Of a stretch of 64,000 nt of DNA, positions 972 through 6,737 are shown one piece after another. Made by a program: the position numbers and the translations under genes. The number at the start of each line of letters is the position of its first letter. The first letter of the stretch is position 1. The stretch is from Aestuariispira ectoiniformans (lineage in GTDB: Bacteria > Pseudomonadota > Alphaproteobacteria > UBA8366 > Aestuariispiraceae). The stretch is taken from the NCBI RefSeq assembly GCF_025136295.1, contig NZ_CP062788.1, positions 1,705,001-1,769,000 of the forward strand. The letters are read 5' to 3'. Under the pieces are notes generated by a model. The model was not told the origin of the DNA. It did no database searches and saw only the letters and a list, made by a program, of their open reading frames with translations.

Positions 972-2162
972 CTAGCTTGCCTTTGCCAGATCCCCATGCG
1001 GGTCCAGCACATATTTTGCGGCGGCCCCTCCGTCGAAGGCGTGATACCCCTCGGCTGCATCGTCCAGGGGGATGATCTTTGCATTGACGATTTCTGCAAT
1101 ATTCAGCCGGTCATGCAGAATAGCCTGCATCAATTGACGGTTATATTTGATGACCGGGGTCTGCCCGGTATGGAAGCTTTGTGCCTTCGCCCAGCCAAGG
1201 CCAAAGCGCAGGCTCAGACTGCCCACTTTGGCGGCCTCGTCGACCGCACCCGGATCCTCGGTCACATAAAGTCCCGGGATGCCGATGGAACCGGCGGCGC
1301 GGGTGACTTCCATCATCTGGTTCAGGACGATCGCTGGCTGTTCCCCGCCTTTGTGGCCGCGTGCCTCAAAGCCAACGGCGTCAATGGCGCTGTCCACTTC
1401 CGGATCGCCGGTAACCTCTGCCACCATCTCGCCAAGACGGTCATGTTTGCCAAGGTCGATCGGGACAAAGCCCATCTTTTCCGCATGGGCCAGGCGATCC
1501 GGGTTGAAATCGCCGATCATCACAACGGCAGCCCCCAGGATGCGGGCGGAGGCGGCTGCGGCCAGGCCGACTGGACCGGCGCCCGCCACATAGACGGTGG
1601 AGCCGACACCGACGCCTGCATTGATTGCGCCATGAAAACCGGTGGGCAGGATGTCGGACAGCATGGTCAGGTCCTTGATTTTCGCCATCGCGCGGTCCTT
1701 GTCCGGGAAGCGCAGCAGGTTGAAATCAGCATAGGGGACCATGACATAACGAGCCTGTCCGCCGATCCACCCGCCCATGTCCACATAGCCATAGGCACCC
1801 CCGGCGCGTTCGGGATTCACGGTCAGGCAGACGCCGGTGTCCTGGCTTTTGCATGTACGGCAACGACCGCAGGCGACATTGAAGGGAACGGAAACCAGAT
1901 CGCCGACCTCGAGCATCTCCACATCAGCGCCTTTTTCGATGACCTCGCCAGTGATTTCGTGACCCAGGACGAGGCCTTCCGGTGCGGTGGTCCGCCCGCG
2001 GACCATATGCTGGTCGGAGCCGCAGATATTCGTGCTGACAACTTTTAGAATAACTCCATGCTCGATTTTACGGCCGTCAGGGGCGATGAAAGCGGGATCT
2101 GCGATGTTTTGCACTTCGACATTGTCGGGGCCGAGATAGACTACTCCGCGGTTCTTACTCAT
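972..2162 (-). CDS. fdhA: Glutathione-independent formaldehyde dehydrogenase (zinc alcohol dehydrogenase family)
   Basis: This 396-residue cytoplasmic enzyme oxidises formaldehyde to formate with NAD and needs no glutathione. The catalytic zinc ligands are Cys47 (NICGSDQH) and His68 (LGHEITG). The structural zinc site CGRCRTC continues to Cys112, and the Rossmann motif AGAGPVGLAAA lies near residue 195. Length and the long insertions match the Pseudomonas putida FdhA type rather than the glutathione-dependent FrmA type. The ATG at 2162 is preceded by AAAGGA at good spacing. A cobalamin riboswitch lies about 290 nt upstream on the same strand, with a short ORF overlapping the start, so the gene is probably shut down by B12. 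Related aldehyde dismutases share the fold; formaldehyde is the most likely substrate. Confidence 0.9.
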   Translation of the reverse strand: MSKNRGVVYLGPDNVEVQNIADPAFIAPDGRKIEHGVILKVVSTNICGSDQHMVRGRTTAPEGLVLGHEITGEVIEKGADVEMLEVGDLVSVPFNVACGRCRTCKSQDTGVCLTVNPERAGGAYGYVDMGGWIGGQARYVMVPYADFNLLRFPDKDRAMAKIKDLTMLSDILPTGFHGAINAGVGVGSTVYVAGAGPVGLAAAASARILGAAVVMIGDFNPDRLAHAEKMGFVPIDLGKHDRLGEMVAEVTGDPEVDSAIDAVGFEARGHKGGEQPAIVLNQMMEVTRAAGSIGIPGLYVTEDPGAVDEAAKVGSLSLRFGLGWAKAQSFHTGQTPVIKYNRQLMQAILHDRLNIAEIVNAKIIPLDDAAEGYHAFDGGAAAKYVLDPHGDLAKAS

Positions 2163-2244
2163 TTTTCCATCCTTTATGATTGCTGAATTGCTGTCGGATG
2201 GCCCGGCACCGGGACGTGATACAGTGATACGGGTTTTGGATCAT
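2155..2244 (-). CDS. Candidate 29-residue leader ORF overlapping the fdhA start
   Basis: An ATG at 2244 is preceded by a near-perfect Shine-Dalgarno sequence (AGGGAGGT, 5-nt spacing), stronger than that of fdhA. The reading frame encodes MIQNPYHCITSRC and continues to a TAA inside codons 2-3 of fdhA, in another frame. That layout would let ribosomes finishing the leader re-initiate at fdhA. It lies between the cobalamin riboswitch and fdhA. No homology is recognised. It could be a translated leader or a chance ORF with a good ribosome site. Confidence 0.35.
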   Translation of the reverse strand: MIQNPYHCITSRCRAIRQQFSNHKGWKNE

Positions 2245-2454
2245 ATTTTACCTCCCTGTTCCCGGTGGTTTGAGTGGGGAGAGGCATGCAACCCGGACCG
2301 AGACCCTATGTGTGGGACTGTCAGGTTCGCATCCCTTGATGCACCCCGCTCAAGGCCAACAATTTCCGATTACAGATGGAACAGCTAGACCGGTTTCGTT
2401 GTCATGAACGCAACCATGCCTGCCGATCGCCACCCGCGACCCGGAAAAGGACTG

Positions 2455-2648
2455 AATGCAAGGGCTGGTTTCCGGACTTGAAAGCGGGGGGTCCCCCTGA
2501 CGTAGCGCCTTCTCGGGCAGGCATAGCCCAATGGCGGTTTGCTGCGTAAAACTTTCATACCGTTGCGGGGGCAGCGTCGGCGTCTCACCGACTTCCCAAT
2601 TATCCACCTTGACGACAAGGCAGCACCACAAGCGAGAGCATGGTGTAT
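2455..2648 (-). promoter_or_regulatory. Cobalamin riboswitch upstream of fdhA
   Basis: Read on the minus strand, the conserved adenosylcobalamin aptamer core is plain: AATTGGGAAGTCGGTG, then GCTGCCCCCGCAACGGTA (complement of about 2557-2606). It is followed by a GCCATTGGG element and the B12 box AAGTCCGGAAACCAGCC (complement of about 2464-2480). Boundaries are approximate. The next gene on this strand is fdhA, after a leader of roughly 210 nt that holds a short ORF. Cobalamin riboswitches normally repress the downstream gene when the cofactor is abundant. No terminator hairpin with a T-run is evident, so control is probably at translation or through more distal RNA structure. Confidence 0.93.
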
Positions 2649-2889
2649 TTATTTCAACTATAGGAATGTAGTGTCAGCGACATAATGGGCCGAGTTAGCG
2701 CCCAATGGTGCCGTAGCCGACTAAAGTGGGGGGTATGTTGGAGAAGATGGTCTCCTTTTTAATAAGGGATTGTAAAATAACGGGAATATGTCTGAATGAT
2801 ATCTCTGATTTAGCAGTATCTTCATTAATATAAAGATATCCATATGTCGTTATTTTAGTTCTTGATATTGATCCCTTTTGCTGATAATT

Positions 2890-3105
2890 CCCGTTTTGGC
2901 TCTGGTTCTGTGCAAGCGGTGTTGCTTTGCACAGCTAAGAGGGAATTCGGTGCGTTCATCCCCAAATGGGATGAGCAAGGCCGAAGCTGCCCCCGCAACT
3001 GTGAGCGGTGAGGGATCCATTCATGATGTCACTGGCGGTGATCGCCGGGAAGACGAATGGACCGCGACGACCCGCAAGCCAGGAGACCTGCCAAAGCCGG
3101 AATGT
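2890..3105 (+). promoter_or_regulatory. Cobalamin riboswitch upstream of the betaine:homocysteine methyltransferase
   Basis: The aptamer core reads GAGGGAATTCGGTG, an extended hairpin, then GCTGCCCCCGCAACTGTGAG (2986-3005). The B12 box AAGCCAGGAGACCTGCC (about 3075-3091) matches the consensus. The 5' side begins near the GGTTCTGTGC stem at about 2893. About 185 nt separate the box from the methyltransferase ATG at 3291. The AT-rich stretch 2650-2890 between this element and the divergent fdhA riboswitch must hold both promoters. It also has a weak 5-bp hairpin followed by five Ts at 2740-2760. Confidence 0.95.
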
Positions 3106-3290
3106 CCATGGGCGGGGTGTCCCATCGAAGACTGCGCGCATGTCACGGTGTTTTCACGCCGGCAGTCCTTCCTTGTCCCCGCCTGCAACCAAACGCACGG
3201 GGAAGCGCGTATTGATGAGCACGAAGGCAAAATTGACAGTCGGTCACTTTCGCGTCCCGGCCATTCTGTTGAACGCGAAAGGAAATTTTC

Positions 3291-4355
3291 ATGACAAAAC
3301 CCATTAAACGGTCGCTGGTCGAGAGATTAAAAGACGGCCCGGTGATCTGTGCCGAGGGTTTTCTGTTTGAACTGGAACGCCGCGGCTATCTGACCGCGGG
3401 GGAATTCGTGCCGGAAGTGGCGCTGGATCATCCGGAAGCCTTGACGATCCTGCATCGGGACTTCCAGCGTGCCGGTTCGGATATCGTCGAGGCCTTCACC
3501 TATAACGGCCACCGGGAAAAGATGCGCGTGATCGGCAAGGAGGATTTGCTGGAACCGCTTAACCGCGCCGCCCTTCAGATTGCCCGCGAGGTTGCGGATA
3601 ATGCGCCCGGGGAAGCCAATCTGATGGCGGGCAATATTTCCAATACCAATATCTGGAATCCCGAAGACCCGGATGCACAGCGTGATGTCCACGCGATGTT
3701 CGAGGAAATGGTCGGCTGGGCAGTGGAAGAAGGGGCCGATATGTTGATCGGGGAAACCTTCTATTACGCCGGTGAGGCTGAGGTCGCGCTGGAAGTGATG
3801 CAGAAGACTGGCTTGCCCTGCGTCGTCACCCTGGCGCCGATGGCCGGTAATCGGATGATGGACGACACAGGCATCGTGGAGACCTGTCAGAAGCTGGAAC
3901 AGCTTGGGGCGGATGTGGTCGGCCTGAACTGTTTTCGCGGGCCGGAGACGATGTTGGCCGACCTGAAGAAGATCCGCGAGGCGGTATCCTGCCCGGTGGC
4001 CGGTTTACCCGTTCCTTACCGGACGACCGACGAGGAGCCGACATTCTTCAACCTGTCGGACAATAACGGCTGTCACTGCCCGTCGCCCCATGGTCGGACC
4101 TTCCCGACCGCGTTGGACCCGCTCTATGTGAACCGGTATGAAATCCGTGATTTCGCATGCCGTGCCTTTGAGATGGGGATATCCTATCTGGGCGTTTGCT
4201 GTGGCGCGTCACCCATGCATATCCGCGAGGTTGCCGAAGCCGTCGGTGTGGCGACCGAGGCCAGCCGCTATTCGGAGAATATGGAAAACCACTTCATGTA
4301 TGGCAGCCACGAACGTCTGCCGGGTCATATTCGCGATCTGGGCGATACGGCCTGA
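3291..4355 (+). CDS. bmt: Betaine--homocysteine S-methyltransferase family protein
   Basis: This 354-residue TIM-barrel enzyme of the homocysteine S-methyltransferase family transfers a methyl group, most likely from glycine betaine, to homocysteine to make methionine, independently of B12. Zinc ligands are visible as the Cys of VVGLNCFRGP near residue 211 and the Cys pair of LGVCCGASP near residue 304. The start region RLKDGPVICAEGFLFELERRGYL resembles BHMT more than the methionine synthase barrel. AAAGGAA precedes the ATG. The upstream cobalamin riboswitch suggests use when B12 is scarce, and choline uptake and oxidation genes are encoded elsewhere in the window. A different methyl donor such as S-methylmethionine or dimethylsulfoniopropionate cannot be excluded. 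Confidence 0.85.
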   Translation: MTKPIKRSLVERLKDGPVICAEGFLFELERRGYLTAGEFVPEVALDHPEALTILHRDFQRAGSDIVEAFTYNGHREKMRVIGKEDLLEPLNRAALQIAREVADNAPGEANLMAGNISNTNIWNPEDPDAQRDVHAMFEEMVGWAVEEGADMLIGETFYYAGEAEVALEVMQKTGLPCVVTLAPMAGNRMMDDTGIVETCQKLEQLGADVVGLNCFRGPETMLADLKKIREAVSCPVAGLPVPYRTTDEEPTFFNLSDNNGCHCPSPHGRTFPTALDPLYVNRYEIRDFACRAFEMGISYLGVCCGASPMHIREVAEAVGVATEASRYSENMENHFMYGSHERLPGHIRDLGDTA

Positions 4356-4367
4356 CCTCGGTGATGG

Positions 4368-4396
4368 AAGGGAAGGGGCTACGCCTCTTCCCTTTT
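4368..4396 (+). terminator. Rho-independent terminator after bmt
   Basis: Arms 4368-4379 (AAGGGAAGGGGC) and 4383-4394 pair over 12 bp with one G-U wobble around a 3-nt loop. The 3' arm runs into TTTT, 13 nt past the bmt stop codon. Confidence 0.75.
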
Positions 4397-5718
4397 CAGC
4401 AATCCGGGACATCCTGTTCCAGGATTTCCATGGCAGATTCGGCACGCCGGTTGTTGAGGCCCAGTTGTTGTAGCCGCCTTTTGATGCCGCATCCGGTCTC
4501 CTGCCAACCGGGGAAGGTCTGGTCGGTCCAGAAACGGTTGTCCGGGTTCAGGTAGCCGATCTGGTCCAGGAAGGCGACGCCATAGTAATAGGCATCGCCC
4601 AGGGAATTGTAGAAGGGGAAAAAGCGGAAGCCGCCCTTGTCATCCATGGAGTCATTCAGGCAGTAATCCAGCATCTTTTCGAACTGGATGCAGGCGTAAT
4701 CCATCTGTTCCTGTGTCAGATCATCCCAGACCAGTTTGAGGATTTTCACCACGTCCATGTTGTTGTGGTTGTTCATATGCCCGTCGACCATCCAGCCGAA
4801 GGGATATTCATATTTCTCAATGGCAAAAAGGGTGTCGATCATCTCTTCCAGATATTGAATGGGATGATCGCCATCCTTCATGCGGTATTTGACGGTATGA
4901 TAGGTGAGGCTGAGGTCCGGGGATTTGTAGAGTTCACCGTTAAAGACAAACCATTCTCCCCAGAAGCCGGTTGCCGGGTCCTGCCAATGGTCCAGCAGCT
5001 TGGTCCAGGCCGCCCTATAGGCGTCGGTAATCTCGAAATCCTGCACATAGTCGCGAATATATTTCCGCAAATAGGATTTGTAGACCAGTTGAGAGACCGA
5101 CCCGGTGATGGCCCCGATCTGGTCGCGGTGGTTGATACCGTTCCTGGCAATGTTCGATGTGATCAGCGGTGTCAGATAGGCCGTCATCTTCTCCGGCGTC
5201 GAAATGGGTTCCATAAAATAGAAGGGAACCTTGGCGGCGATCGGATCTCCGTCGTTGTAGAGTGTGTAAACCCCTTCGATCATCGCATCACATTGGGCAT
5301 GAAACTGCGTATAGCCGGACCCGAAGGCGCCGGTCGTCGGGTTCTGCCATGCGATATCCTGGGGCTGGTCATGGTTTTCGAGGCTGGTATACAGCCTGTC
5401 GATCTCGTTATCGAAGTCGGTGAAATAGGCGGTCTCCTCCACATACCATTTGGCTTCGATCCGGATATGGCGTGAGGTGGTCAGGCGGATTTTCTCATCG
5501 ACCGGGCAATGGTCGTTGATATGTTTTTCCTCACGCATGACGGCCGCTCGGGCCTTGCGGTATTCCTTTTCCGCTTTCGGCTGTTTCTTGGGGTATCCCG
5601 GGTCATATTGGGCGAAGGCCTCTGCGATCATGGCCTTGTAGTCGGGAAATCCCTCGACGCCCAAGCGGCCTAATACCTTGTCTTTCGGGCTGTATTTCTT
5701 TGCTACTGTGGCATCCAT
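4396..5718 (-). CDS. Unrecognised 440-residue soluble protein, possible alpha/alpha-toroid fold
   Basis: I do not recognise this family. The protein has no signal peptide or membrane segment and is rich in Trp, Tyr, Phe, Asp and Asn. Motifs such as WQDPATGFWGEWF (near residue 247), WQNPTTGAFGSGY (near 140), DGHMNNHNNMDVV (near 315) and a C-terminal FPGWQETGCG recur about once per helical hairpin. This recalls terpenoid-cyclase or glycosidase-like alpha/alpha toroids, but that is inference from spacing only. The ATG at 5718 is chosen because GGGGAG stands 7 nt upstream; an ATG 11 codons earlier lacks a good site. It converges on bmt and is divergent from the Ada-like gene. Whether it joins the betaine/formaldehyde pathway is unknown. 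Confidence 0.75.
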   Translation of the reverse strand: MDATVAKKYSPKDKVLGRLGVEGFPDYKAMIAEAFAQYDPGYPKKQPKAEKEYRKARAAVMREEKHINDHCPVDEKIRLTTSRHIRIEAKWYVEETAYFTDFDNEIDRLYTSLENHDQPQDIAWQNPTTGAFGSGYTQFHAQCDAMIEGVYTLYNDGDPIAAKVPFYFMEPISTPEKMTAYLTPLITSNIARNGINHRDQIGAITGSVSQLVYKSYLRKYIRDYVQDFEITDAYRAAWTKLLDHWQDPATGFWGEWFVFNGELYKSPDLSLTYHTVKYRMKDGDHPIQYLEEMIDTLFAIEKYEYPFGWMVDGHMNNHNNMDVVKILKLVWDDLTQEQMDYACIQFEKMLDYCLNDSMDDKGGFRFFPFYNSLGDAYYYGVAFLDQIGYLNPDNRFWTDQTFPGWQETGCGIKRRLQQLGLNNRRAESAMEILEQDVPDC

Positions 5719-5855
5719 CGAGACTCTCCCCGCAAACCAGTTTCTCCTCATAGTAGTTTGCTTCCCGCTTTGGCTGTAGACAAGAAGGAAACTGCCCGAT
5801 GCGCAACAATCGGGTGGGTTCTCGCTGTTCGCGGGCGTAGAAAGGGACCATAATC

Positions 5856-6737
5856 ATGACTGTAAGCGGGATGACCGGGATGCAGATGCAAGATACCTAC
5901 GACACGATTGAAATCGCCCTGACCTATCTGTCCGATCACTGGGATGAACAGCCGGAGTTGGGAGAACTGGCGCAATATGTGGGGATGAGCGAGCATCACC
6001 TGCAGCGGGTCTTCACCCGTTGGGTCGGCATCAGCCCCAAAAAGTTTTTGAGCGCCCTTACACTTGATCAGGCGCGCCGCCGTTTGAATGACAGCCTCAG
6101 CGTCCTCCACGCGTCTTTGGACAGCGGTCTGTCAGGACCCGGTCGGCTGCACGACCTGTTCGTGACCTATGAGGCGATGACACCCGGCGAATACAAACGC
6201 CAGGCGGCGGGGCTGACGATCCGCTATGGCTGGCACGCAACGCCTTTCGGGCAGGCACTGCTGATGACGACCGACCGCGGCGTATGCGGCATGTCATTCG
6301 TGGATGACCGGGGTGTGGACGCCTGTTTTGATGATATGGCGGCCCGCTGGCCCAAGGCACGGCTGGTTCAGGATCAGGCCGAAACGGAACGGGCTATCGC
6401 CACCATTTTTGCAAGTCCGGATGACATCAAAAGCGGCAATGTGCCGCCGCTGAGGCTGTTCCTCAAAGGGACCGACTTTCAGGTGAAGGTCTGGGAAGCC
6501 CTGATGGAACTGCCCATGGGGGCTTTGACCACATATGGCGATATCGCCAAACAGGTCGGCATCTCCACAGGCGGTGGGCAGGCGGTGGGCAATGCGGTGG
6601 GGAAGAATCCGATATCCTGGCTTATCCCCTGCCACCGTGTGATCCGCAATACAGGCGAACTGGGCGGCTACCGCTGGGGGCTGCCGCGCAAGATCGCCAT
6701 GATGGGGTGGGAAGCTGCCGCCGCCGAAGGCGACTGA
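5856..6737 (+). CDS. AraC-type HTH / O6-methylguanine-DNA methyltransferase fusion (Ada-like, no N-terminal zinc domain)
   Basis: This 293-residue protein has an AraC-type helix-turn-helix at about residues 15-115. An alkylguanine transferase domain follows at about 125-288, with the catalytic motif PCHRV (Cys259) and the DNA-binding signature YGDIAKQVG. It would remove O6-methyl groups from guanine by suicide transfer to the cysteine. Classical Ada carries an extra N-terminal four-cysteine zinc domain that senses methylphosphotriesters; that domain is absent here. How, or whether, the HTH part is switched is therefore unclear. The start is preceded by AAAGGGA. It may start at the internal Met11 instead. 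Confidence 0.9.
   Translation: MTVSGMTGMQMQDTYDTIEIALTYLSDHWDEQPELGELAQYVGMSEHHLQRVFTRWVGISPKKFLSALTLDQARRRLNDSLSVLHASLDSGLSGPGRLHDLFVTYEAMTPGEYKRQAAGLTIRYGWHATPFGQALLMTTDRGVCGMSFVDDRGVDACFDDMAARWPKARLVQDQAETERAIATIFASPDDIKSGNVPPLRLFLKGTDFQVKVWEALMELPMGALTTYGDIAKQVGISTGGGQAVGNAVGKNPISWLIPCHRVIRNTGELGGYRWGLPRKIAMMGWEAAAAEGD

Follow-up and report, generated by a model that had tools for sequence, protein, structure and literature searches.

Cobalamin riboswitches usually switch genes off with B12, and among the genes that they control are those of B12-independent isozymes, such as metE beside MetH and class I nrd genes beside class II ribonucleotide reductase. Here we analysed a 64,000-nucleotide stretch of the Aestuariispira ectoiniformans genome (NZ_CP062788.1, positions 1,705,001 to 1,769,000; hereafter the window), in which one cobalamin riboswitch precedes fdhA for a formaldehyde dehydrogenase and another, on the opposite strand, precedes a gene for a protein like betaine:homocysteine methyltransferase (BHMT). 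Together with a riboswitch before gbcAB-like genes elsewhere in the genome, these two aptamers probably belong to a B12 regulon of three loci that governs the use of betaine methyl groups. Such a regulon is like the metE/nrd principle in that a riboswitch stands before a B12-free substitute and the B12-dependent counterpart is encoded elsewhere in the genome. It differs in its substitutes, namely a BHMT-like enzyme, a Rieske betaine monooxygenase and a formaldehyde dehydrogenase, which would add a catabolic step and a detoxifier to the biosynthetic isozyme. B12 control of B12-independent isozymes is already known, and betaine monooxygenase and formaldehyde dehydrogenase appear to be new variants of its targets.

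Betaine catabolism of the Pseudomonas type relies on gbcAB and fdhA, and the same genes stand together in Agrobacterium and Paracoccus plasmids and in one of our sampled genomes (G267; genomes and loci carry our own numbers, G and L, where they have to be told apart). Those replicons have LysR- or GlxA-type regulators near these genes and no cobalamin riboswitch was found there, whereas the control proposed here would be exerted by a B12-responsive RNA.

Glycine betaine is an abundant marine osmolyte, and the part of the literature at hand assigns its aerobic routes, GbcAB, Bhmt and MtgBCD, to different organisms (PMC12478193). According to the same excerpt, MtgBCDE of Ruegeria and Phaeobacter is a dual glycine betaine demethylase and methionine synthase. 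Likely components of such a system are present in A. ectoiniformans too: three MTTB genes, a pterin-binding methyltransferase, a RACo-type corrinoid activase and an MtgE-type enzyme (NF005718, 461.9 bits, cut-off 338). On the other hand, GbcAB and Bhmt, which that excerpt gives to other organisms, here coexist with the corrinoid genes and lie behind B12 riboswitches; its sole mention of riboswitches is a reference on the glycine riboswitch.

The bhmT gene of SAR11 is under tandem SAM-II/SAM-V riboswitches (PMC2704228; PMC5069961), and bhmT of strain HTCC1062 is related to actinobacterial orthologues (PMC5069961, in the portion available). The similarity to our locus is that a BHMT-family gene under a riboswitch may serve as a methionine source and that the subfamily in the window is also rich in actinobacterial members, but the ligand in those excerpts is S-adenosylmethionine (SAM), whereas here it is cobalamin, in Rhodobacterales cobalamin plus an S-adenosylhomocysteine (SAH) aptamer. 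Moreover, bhmT is counted among the methionine-synthesis targets of the MetR and SahR regulons in Proteobacteria (PMC4239095). The regulators there are proteins; the available part of that study gives no B12 riboswitch for bhmT, and SAH riboswitches only for gamma- and betaproteobacteria. Another paper was considered as a precedent and set aside, because its cobalamin riboswitches, in the part at hand, flank cobalamin synthesis genes (PMC12530212). In the open-access literature searched, we found no report of a B12 riboswitch on a betaine monooxygenase or a formaldehyde dehydrogenase, for which an earlier mention is possible, nor of one on BHMT, the papers examined there on bhmT being concerned with SAM, SAH or protein regulators. 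Early comparative-genomics papers on B12 regulons may include bhmT among the targets.

Two divergent cobalamin riboswitches

The features under study are as follows.

972-2162, minus strand: fdhA, glutathione-independent formaldehyde dehydrogenase, 396 aa (TIGR02819, 711 bits, cut-off 636.95)
2155-2244, minus strand: possible leader open reading frame (ORF) of 29 aa, uncertain; ATG after GGGAGG, stop overlapping the fdhA ATG (ATGAGTAA)
2446-2645, minus strand: cobalamin aptamer of the fdhA leader, gbcAB subtype (RF00174, 98.7 bits, E 2e-23, full length, model 1-189)
2886-3109, plus strand: cobalamin aptamer of the BHMT-like leader (RF00174, 135.3 bits, E 6.5e-34, full length, model 1-189)
3247-3281, plus strand: candidate expression platform, a 9-bp hairpin (CUUUCGCGU/ACGCGAAAG), whose 3' arm overlaps the Shine-Dalgarno sequence of the BHMT-like gene
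3291-4355, plus strand: BHMT-like homocysteine S-methyltransferase, 354 aa (PF02574, 133.6 bits)
4396-5751, minus strand: ORF of 451 aa converging on the BHMT-like gene, without Pfam or NCBIfam match; its membership in the module is uncertain

Rfam 15 cmscan over the whole window gave exactly two RF00174 matches above the gathering threshold of 31.5, plus one tRNA. The two aptamers are divergent and back to back with 240 nt between them, and each is separated from its start codon, by 181 nt at the BHMT-like gene and by 283 nt at fdhA. This bears out the preliminary description of this DNA, which had read two cobalamin aptamers about 240 bp apart on opposite strands from their letters alone: the Rfam Cobalamin covariance model matches at full length on each strand, chance is ruled out, and the TIGR02819 and PF02574 matches agree with its naming of the downstream genes. 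The nearest solved structures of FdhA are 4jlw (E 1.8e-192) and 1kol (E 6.2e-191).

The two aptamers were compared within a set of 65 riboswitches (8 from the own genome, 43 from its family, 8 from L222-L228 and 6 from Rhodobacterales). The BHMT-leader aptamer has an ordinary B12 box and a 28-nt P6 loop, and its closest relative in the set is the aptamer of the BHMT gene in G211 (71% identity). In its leader, the hairpin at 3247-3281 is predicted in both the minimum-energy and the centroid fold and may control translation of bhmt by sequestering the Shine-Dalgarno sequence; the leader as a whole was not more stable than shuffles (z -0.34). A transcription terminator was rejected as platform for either gene, since the two terminator-like sites (1.3 expected in shuffles) do not lie between aptamer and gene. 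No SAH aptamer was found in the BHMT leader at E up to 10. The 29-aa leader ORF was discarded as evidence, because no similar ORF occurs in 17 other fdhA leaders, some of which hold other short ORFs ending at the start.

Riboswitches before gbcAB and a shared aptamer subtype

Eight RF00174 matches were found in the genome (a single contig, 4,361,962 bases), six of them beyond the window. Five of these six are followed, one each, by a DUF4198-CbiM string, an ABC ATPase with a periplasmic binding protein, BluB, CbtA and a 119-aa ORF, so that most of the other riboswitches precede genes for uptake or synthesis of cobalt or B12. The remaining one (C1:1018304-1018530, plus strand) precedes gbcA-gbcB (from C1:1018719 onward). 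The products score 635.3 bits with NF058607 (GbcA, cut-off 670) and 454.2 bits with NF058606 (GbcB, cut-off 500), with the next family far below in each case, and we call the genes gbcAB-like because they stay under the NCBIfam equivalog cut-offs. Judging from the gene families downstream (fdhA, BHMT-like, gbcAB), three of the eight B12 riboswitches precede onium-methyl genes whose families do not need B12. The B12-dependent counterparts are a MetH-type homocysteine module (PF02574, 336.4 bits, for the homocysteine domain), beside an ORF read by eye as MetF, and the three MTTB genes, one of which directly adjoins a DAO-GCV_T protein of the dimethylglycine dehydrogenase (DMGDH) type. PF01717, for MetE or core-MetE, has no match in the genome. 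The 119-aa ORF (L010:12912-13271), which directly follows its riboswitch, has no Pfam or NCBIfam family; BLAST relatives of it follow B12 riboswitches in G211 and G379 (L153, L159), and it is perhaps a B12 or cobalt gene.

The association of riboswitch and gbcA is regular in close relatives. Eight of 14 genomes of the own family, Aestuariispiraceae, have GbcA at at least 49% identity, and all eight have an RF00174 match just upstream on the same strand, while six more distant Rieske genes in the family (34-39%) have none before them. Among 385 evenly drawn genomes of the class, GbcA-like genes (E 1e-100) occur in 24 (27 places), and a riboswitch lies upstream at 7 of 8 places with at least 49% identity, at 1 of 8 with 47-48% and at 0 of 11 with 46% or less. 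The positives outside the family (G257, G380, G148, G340) belong to four families, hence riboswitch-gbcAB is found in five sampled families. Because the genome-wide riboswitch search scored part of the candidates, the 23 gbcA loci outside the family were rescanned with two models, which confirmed these four positives and found no riboswitch at the other loci. Out of 155 plasmid records with GbcA-like genes, nine, picked by match, were examined: riboswitch-gbcA was found in pP11_c of Phaeobacter gallaeciensis (119.3 bits), which also has an annotated glycine betaine ABC binding protein four genes away, and in Shinella sp. PSBB067 (88.7 bits), a weak one below threshold in a plasmid of Rhizobium sp. 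CB3090 (30.2 bits), and none in the other six. What recurs widely is thus riboswitch-gbcAB rather than the divergent fdhA/BHMT pair. This pair, which the preliminary description had proposed to seek in other alphaproteobacterial genomes, was not found in 80 BHMT relatives nor in G211.

Two of these loci carry more than one riboswitch. In G380 (L222:6842-7365), a second back-to-back pair of B12 riboswitches separates gbcAB from the gene for NrdA, the class I ribonucleotide reductase alpha subunit (1017 bits). In G391 (L226:2034-3105), gbcAB is preceded by a tandem of B12 riboswitches that share a strand, one gbc-type and one ordinary, with about 650 nt and no convincing gene between them.

The aptamer before fdhA is of the same type as those before gbcA. 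Its box is AGTCCGGAAACCAGCC, and the variant AG[C/T]CCGGAAACCAGCC is present in exactly 13 of the 65 riboswitches, namely all 12 of gbcA and that of fdhA, and in none of the other 52. A FastTree phylogeny puts the same 13 in a clade of their own (support 0.949). In 15 aligned gbc-type sequences, AACGGU (not AACUGU) and U before GGGAA are invariant; none of the remaining 52 riboswitches showed AACGGU, nine of them being without any match to the word. By antiparallel complementarity, these changes would be paired, from U-A to G-C (ACUG/CAGG) and from A-U to U-A (the base before GGGAA/ACCUGCC). The fdhA aptamer is closest to gbcA aptamers from four genomes other than its own (66-68% identity). 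With the gbcA aptamer of its own genome it shares 54%, so it is probably no recent local copy.

The P6 loop of the fdhA aptamer is 5 nt, as in 8 of 12 gbcA aptamers, but some riboswitches of the set outside the gbc type have short loops as well. According to the accessible part of a review, the adenosylcobalamin-binding class is recognised by its P6 extension (PMC8123684), and a ligand difference of gbc-type aptamers is only a suggestion from this. We tentatively propose that the aptamers of gbcAB and fdhA form a dedicated subclass of cobalamin riboswitch (AACUGU to AACGGU coupled with CCAGG to CCCGG; the A before GGGAA to U coupled with ACCUGCC to ACCAGCC; the P6 extension often missing), which would be tuned to the cofactor form of methyl transfer and would switch aerobes short of B12 from corrinoid betaine demethylation to an oxygenase plus a formaldehyde scavenger.

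A covariance model (R3) was built from 15 gbc-type aptamers (the 13 of the clade plus Phaeobacter and Shinella), and the fdhA aptamer, itself included in the building, scores 167.6 bits with it. Twenty fdhA loci were examined in all: the own, 16 of plasmids and three of the class sample. Shinella sp. WSD5-1 has an intact aptamer directly before fdhA, 183 nt from the start (R3 159.2 bits, Rfam 105.4), and is an independent case of fdhA with a gbc-type riboswitch. Five Rhizobium plasmids (L238, L241-L244) have decayed aptamers there (R3 40.7, 77.9, 25.3, 56.4 and 39.0 bits), and of three tested with Rfam, two are still above threshold. No aptamer was found at ten of the 16 plasmid loci, nor before the three class-sample genes. 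The decayed Rhizobium aptamers have lost letters of the conserved core and may be relics or a variant with another ligand.

In plasmids of Agrobacterium 1D1609 and Paracoccus ferrooxidans, gbcA-gbcB-fdhA is contiguous, and one gene lies between in P. pantotrophus. Because of this adjacency in other replicons, FdhA appears to go with reactions of the GbcAB type. The shared riboswitch subtype and the adjacency are the strongest reason for reading fdhA as the formaldehyde outlet of GbcAB and not of dimethylglycine demethylation.

The BHMT-like enzyme and its riboswitches

The nearest solved structures of the BHMT-like protein are 1umy (E 4.5e-46) and 1lt7 (E 6e-45), vertebrate enzymes which we take to be rat and human BHMT, respectively. 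Cys214, Cys303 and Cys304 align with the human zinc cysteines, and the equivalent of Glu159 is also kept.

The subfamily is conserved at 67-82% identity in Alpha- and Gammaproteobacteria, desulfobacterial metagenome-assembled genomes (MAGs) and Actinobacteria. Among the best 80 of 328 relatives in GTDB genomes, nine have a B12 riboswitch directly upstream, namely Vannielia, an Oceanicola MAG, two Thioclava and the Actinobacteria L021, L071, L073, L083 and L088, and the relative in G211 is a further case. These counts are from covariance models; a consensus-word scan, which gave directly upstream riboswitches at only 4 of the 80 loci, is excluded from them, and misses are possible where the upstream DNA is short (85 bases in L028, 400 in L077, 405 in L090). 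The class sample also holds BHMT-type genes further removed from this subfamily (L112-L129), before which no riboswitch was found, and plasmid records gave no match to a BHMT relative at E 1e-60. The neighbourhood was rejected as a guide to the substrate, since no neighbour is widely shared by the 80 relatives (the largest neighbour cluster covers 11 loci).

In Thioclava, the gene set next to BHMT, NrdI-NrdE-NrdF of class Ib ribonucleotide reductase (with nrdH by eye), is under a second B12 riboswitch. In Vannielia (L023:4285-5053), a SAH aptamer above threshold (41.1 bits) lies between the B12 riboswitch and the start codon, and matches under threshold are at the same place in the Oceanicola MAG (L024:5221-5995, 33.9 bits) and Thioclava (L026:5221-5986, 34.3 bits). 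Such a tandem of cobalamin and SAH aptamers looks like a two-input gate for low B12 and high SAH. A SAH aptamer stands alone in an Azospirillaceae MAG and, by a custom model only, in Pseudoroseicyclus.

Genomes with riboswitch-BHMT may tend to lack MetE. PF01717 at E 0.001 matched in none of six such genomes outside the Actinobacteria, versus 11 of 15 BHMT genomes without a seen riboswitch (p 0.0039). When weak matches were dropped (E 1e-15), the counts were 0 of 6 versus 7 of 15 (p 0.061). Taken with the riboswitches described above, these observations support a role of the BHMT-like enzyme as a B12-independent methionine synthase, which might make up for a missing MetE. In this respect the preliminary description, which had seen here a B12-gated and B12-independent route to methionine, is strengthened by the absence of PF01717 from the own genome and from the six riboswitch-BHMT genomes compared and by the recurrence of the BHMT riboswitch in Rhodobacterales and Actinobacteria.

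A proposed B12 regulon for betaine methyl groups

We envisage the three-locus regulon as follows. With ample B12, MetH or MtgE-type enzymes would methylate homocysteine, corrinoid methyltransferases of the MTTB/MtgB family would demethylate glycine betaine, and bhmt, gbcAB and fdhA would be kept down by their riboswitches. A shortage of B12 would derepress all three: GbcAB would demethylate betaine oxidatively without B12, releasing formaldehyde that FdhA would oxidise, and the BHMT-like enzyme would form methionine by methylating homocysteine with an onium donor, which could be betaine or a related compound such as dimethylsulfoniopropionate (DMSP). Thus GbcAB and FdhA would substitute for MtgB-type demethylation, and BHMT for MetH. 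The aptamers, the gene families, the set of B12 riboswitches in the genome, the subtype common to fdhA and gbcAB and the co-occurrence with MTTB and MetE come directly from the computation, whereas we infer the direction of control (off with B12) from the riboswitch family, the enzyme activities from the gene families, and also the methyl donor and the sequestering mechanism. Neighbours under B12 riboswitches are textbook B12-independent isozymes, such as NrdA in G380, NrdI-NrdE-NrdF in Thioclava and MetE in L038. Moreover, all 12 riboswitch-gbcAB genomes have MTTB matches (2 to 12 each) versus 6 of 16 gbcA genomes without riboswitch (Fisher p 8.8e-4; by family, 5 of 5 versus 3 of 11, p 0.026), so riboswitch-gbcAB is seen in genomes that may have a corrinoid-dependent demethylase to replace, though kinship confounds these tests, since one family contributes 8 of the 12 riboswitch genomes. 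MTTB is likewise present in the six members of the family that have no close GbcA.

If this regulon is real, the amount of B12 in seawater or the rhizosphere would decide whether betaine methyl carbon goes to folate and methionine or to formaldehyde and CO2, and cells starved of B12 would face a formaldehyde load that they anticipate via the same kind of riboswitch. It would also propose a B12-free methionine synthase for bacteria without MetE. Carriers suitable for tests are Phaeobacter gallaeciensis with riboswitch-gbcAB and Shinella plasmids with riboswitch-gbcA or riboswitch-fdhA.

Besides the kinship and the weaker outcome of the stricter PF01717 comparison, several observations weigh against this regulon, and some of them favour other explanations. 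One genome (G107), the exception among the eight places of at least 49% identity, has GbcA at 52% identity without a riboswitch, though it has MTTB (the frame also holds a stop), and in L038 a single B12 riboswitch precedes a string of metE, an unassigned gene and BHMT. Only two of the 20 fdhA loci have an intact riboswitch, and the fdhA aptamer is, as noted, less similar to the gbcA aptamer of the same genome than to those of others. The fdhA aptamer might be a gbcA riboswitch copied there by accident, with no role in regulation, in line with the erosion of such elements in five Rhizobium plasmid leaders (77.9 down to 25.3 bits) and with a 283-nt gap to the fdhA start that holds no terminator above chance; we regard this as very unlikely, since the window aptamer keeps the core and box letters at 98.7 bits and Shinella keeps its aptamer intact 183 nt before fdhA. 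Four Serinicoccus loci (L016, L018, L019, L021) also have an FdhA homologue (65-66% identity) on the strand of the BHMT gene, 2-4 kb upstream of it and separated from it by further genes. No riboswitch was found by Rfam before this homologue, and only L021 has a B12 riboswitch, before BHMT. These loci, the adjacency of the two riboswitches in the window, the nearness of the protein to vertebrate BHMT among solved structures and the DMGDH-like proteins in the genome would suit the module of the preliminary description, in which BHMT uses betaine, the leftover dimethylglycine is demethylated and FdhA clears the formaldehyde, with no need of GbcAB. However, the DMGDH-like proteins carry a folate-binding GCV_T domain, which passes carbon to tetrahydrofolate rather than releasing formaldehyde, the fdhA riboswitch is of the gbcAB and not of the BHMT subtype, fdhA adjoins gbcAB in other replicons, and in G211, which does have riboswitch-bhmt, fdhA gave no match at E 1e-130. 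That module is therefore improbable; its idea of formaldehyde clearance points in the right direction, but the source is more likely GbcAB, with its own riboswitch of the same subtype as that of fdhA, than dimethylglycine derived from BHMT.

The substrates in the three-locus regulon are also open to other readings. Human Trp44, Tyr77 and Tyr160, which we take to be the betaine cage, are replaced by Phe39, Asn72 and Thr156 in the window protein, and Phe, Asn and Thr stand there in every subfamily member at at least 66% identity. With NF005718, a family of betaine--homocysteine S-methyltransferase, the protein scores 92.4 bits, under the cut-off of 338; that family appears to describe the MtgE type, because another gene of the own genome reaches 461.9 bits. 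The zinc cysteines and the Glu159 equivalent are kept, but with the changed cage and the better fit of NF005718 to another gene, betaine is only a candidate as methyl donor. It is a serious possibility, though short of an even one, that the enzyme uses another onium donor (DMSP, S-methylmethionine or another betaine) and is a B12-independent methionine synthase that does not serve betaine demethylation. In the excerpts at hand, Phaeobacter Bmt accepts DMSP besides betaine in vitro (PMC12366255) and a study of Pelagibacter invokes an unknown donor when betaine is absent (PMC5069961), but the likely co-regulation with gbcAB and fdhA in the own genome points to betaine, and an altered cage can still bind it. 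The SAR11-type Bhmt is said to keep the betaine-binding residues (PMC12478193, in the part available); the Pelagibacteraceae copy in our subfamily (L090) lacks them in our alignment and may differ from that SAR11 gene.

As for GbcAB, both proteins stay below their equivalog cut-offs, the nearest solved relatives include 3vca and 4qup, presumably the stachydrine demethylase Stc2, and the gbcA of Paracoccus pantotrophus, itself without riboswitch, has a hydroxyproline-betaine epimerase as neighbour. These facts would agree with genes acting on a non-glycine betaine (stachydrine, hydroxyproline betaine or a carnitine-like compound), in which case the riboswitch would reflect a different corrinoid pathway. 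We consider this rather unlikely, since the GbcA proteins of the own genome, G211 and G257 score 635-651 bits, close to the cut-off of 670, and a glycine betaine ABC binding protein lies near riboswitch-gbcA in Phaeobacter.

Two other genes of the window lie close to the divergent pair. The 451-aa protein has a homologue (36.7% identity) upstream of riboswitch-gbcAB in G211 (L154:7046-8001) and is a possible further member of the pathway. At 5856-6737 on the plus strand, an AraC-type helix-turn-helix is fused to an O6-methylguanine-DNA methyltransferase domain, which places a gene of alkylation repair close to genes of formaldehyde and methyl transfer.

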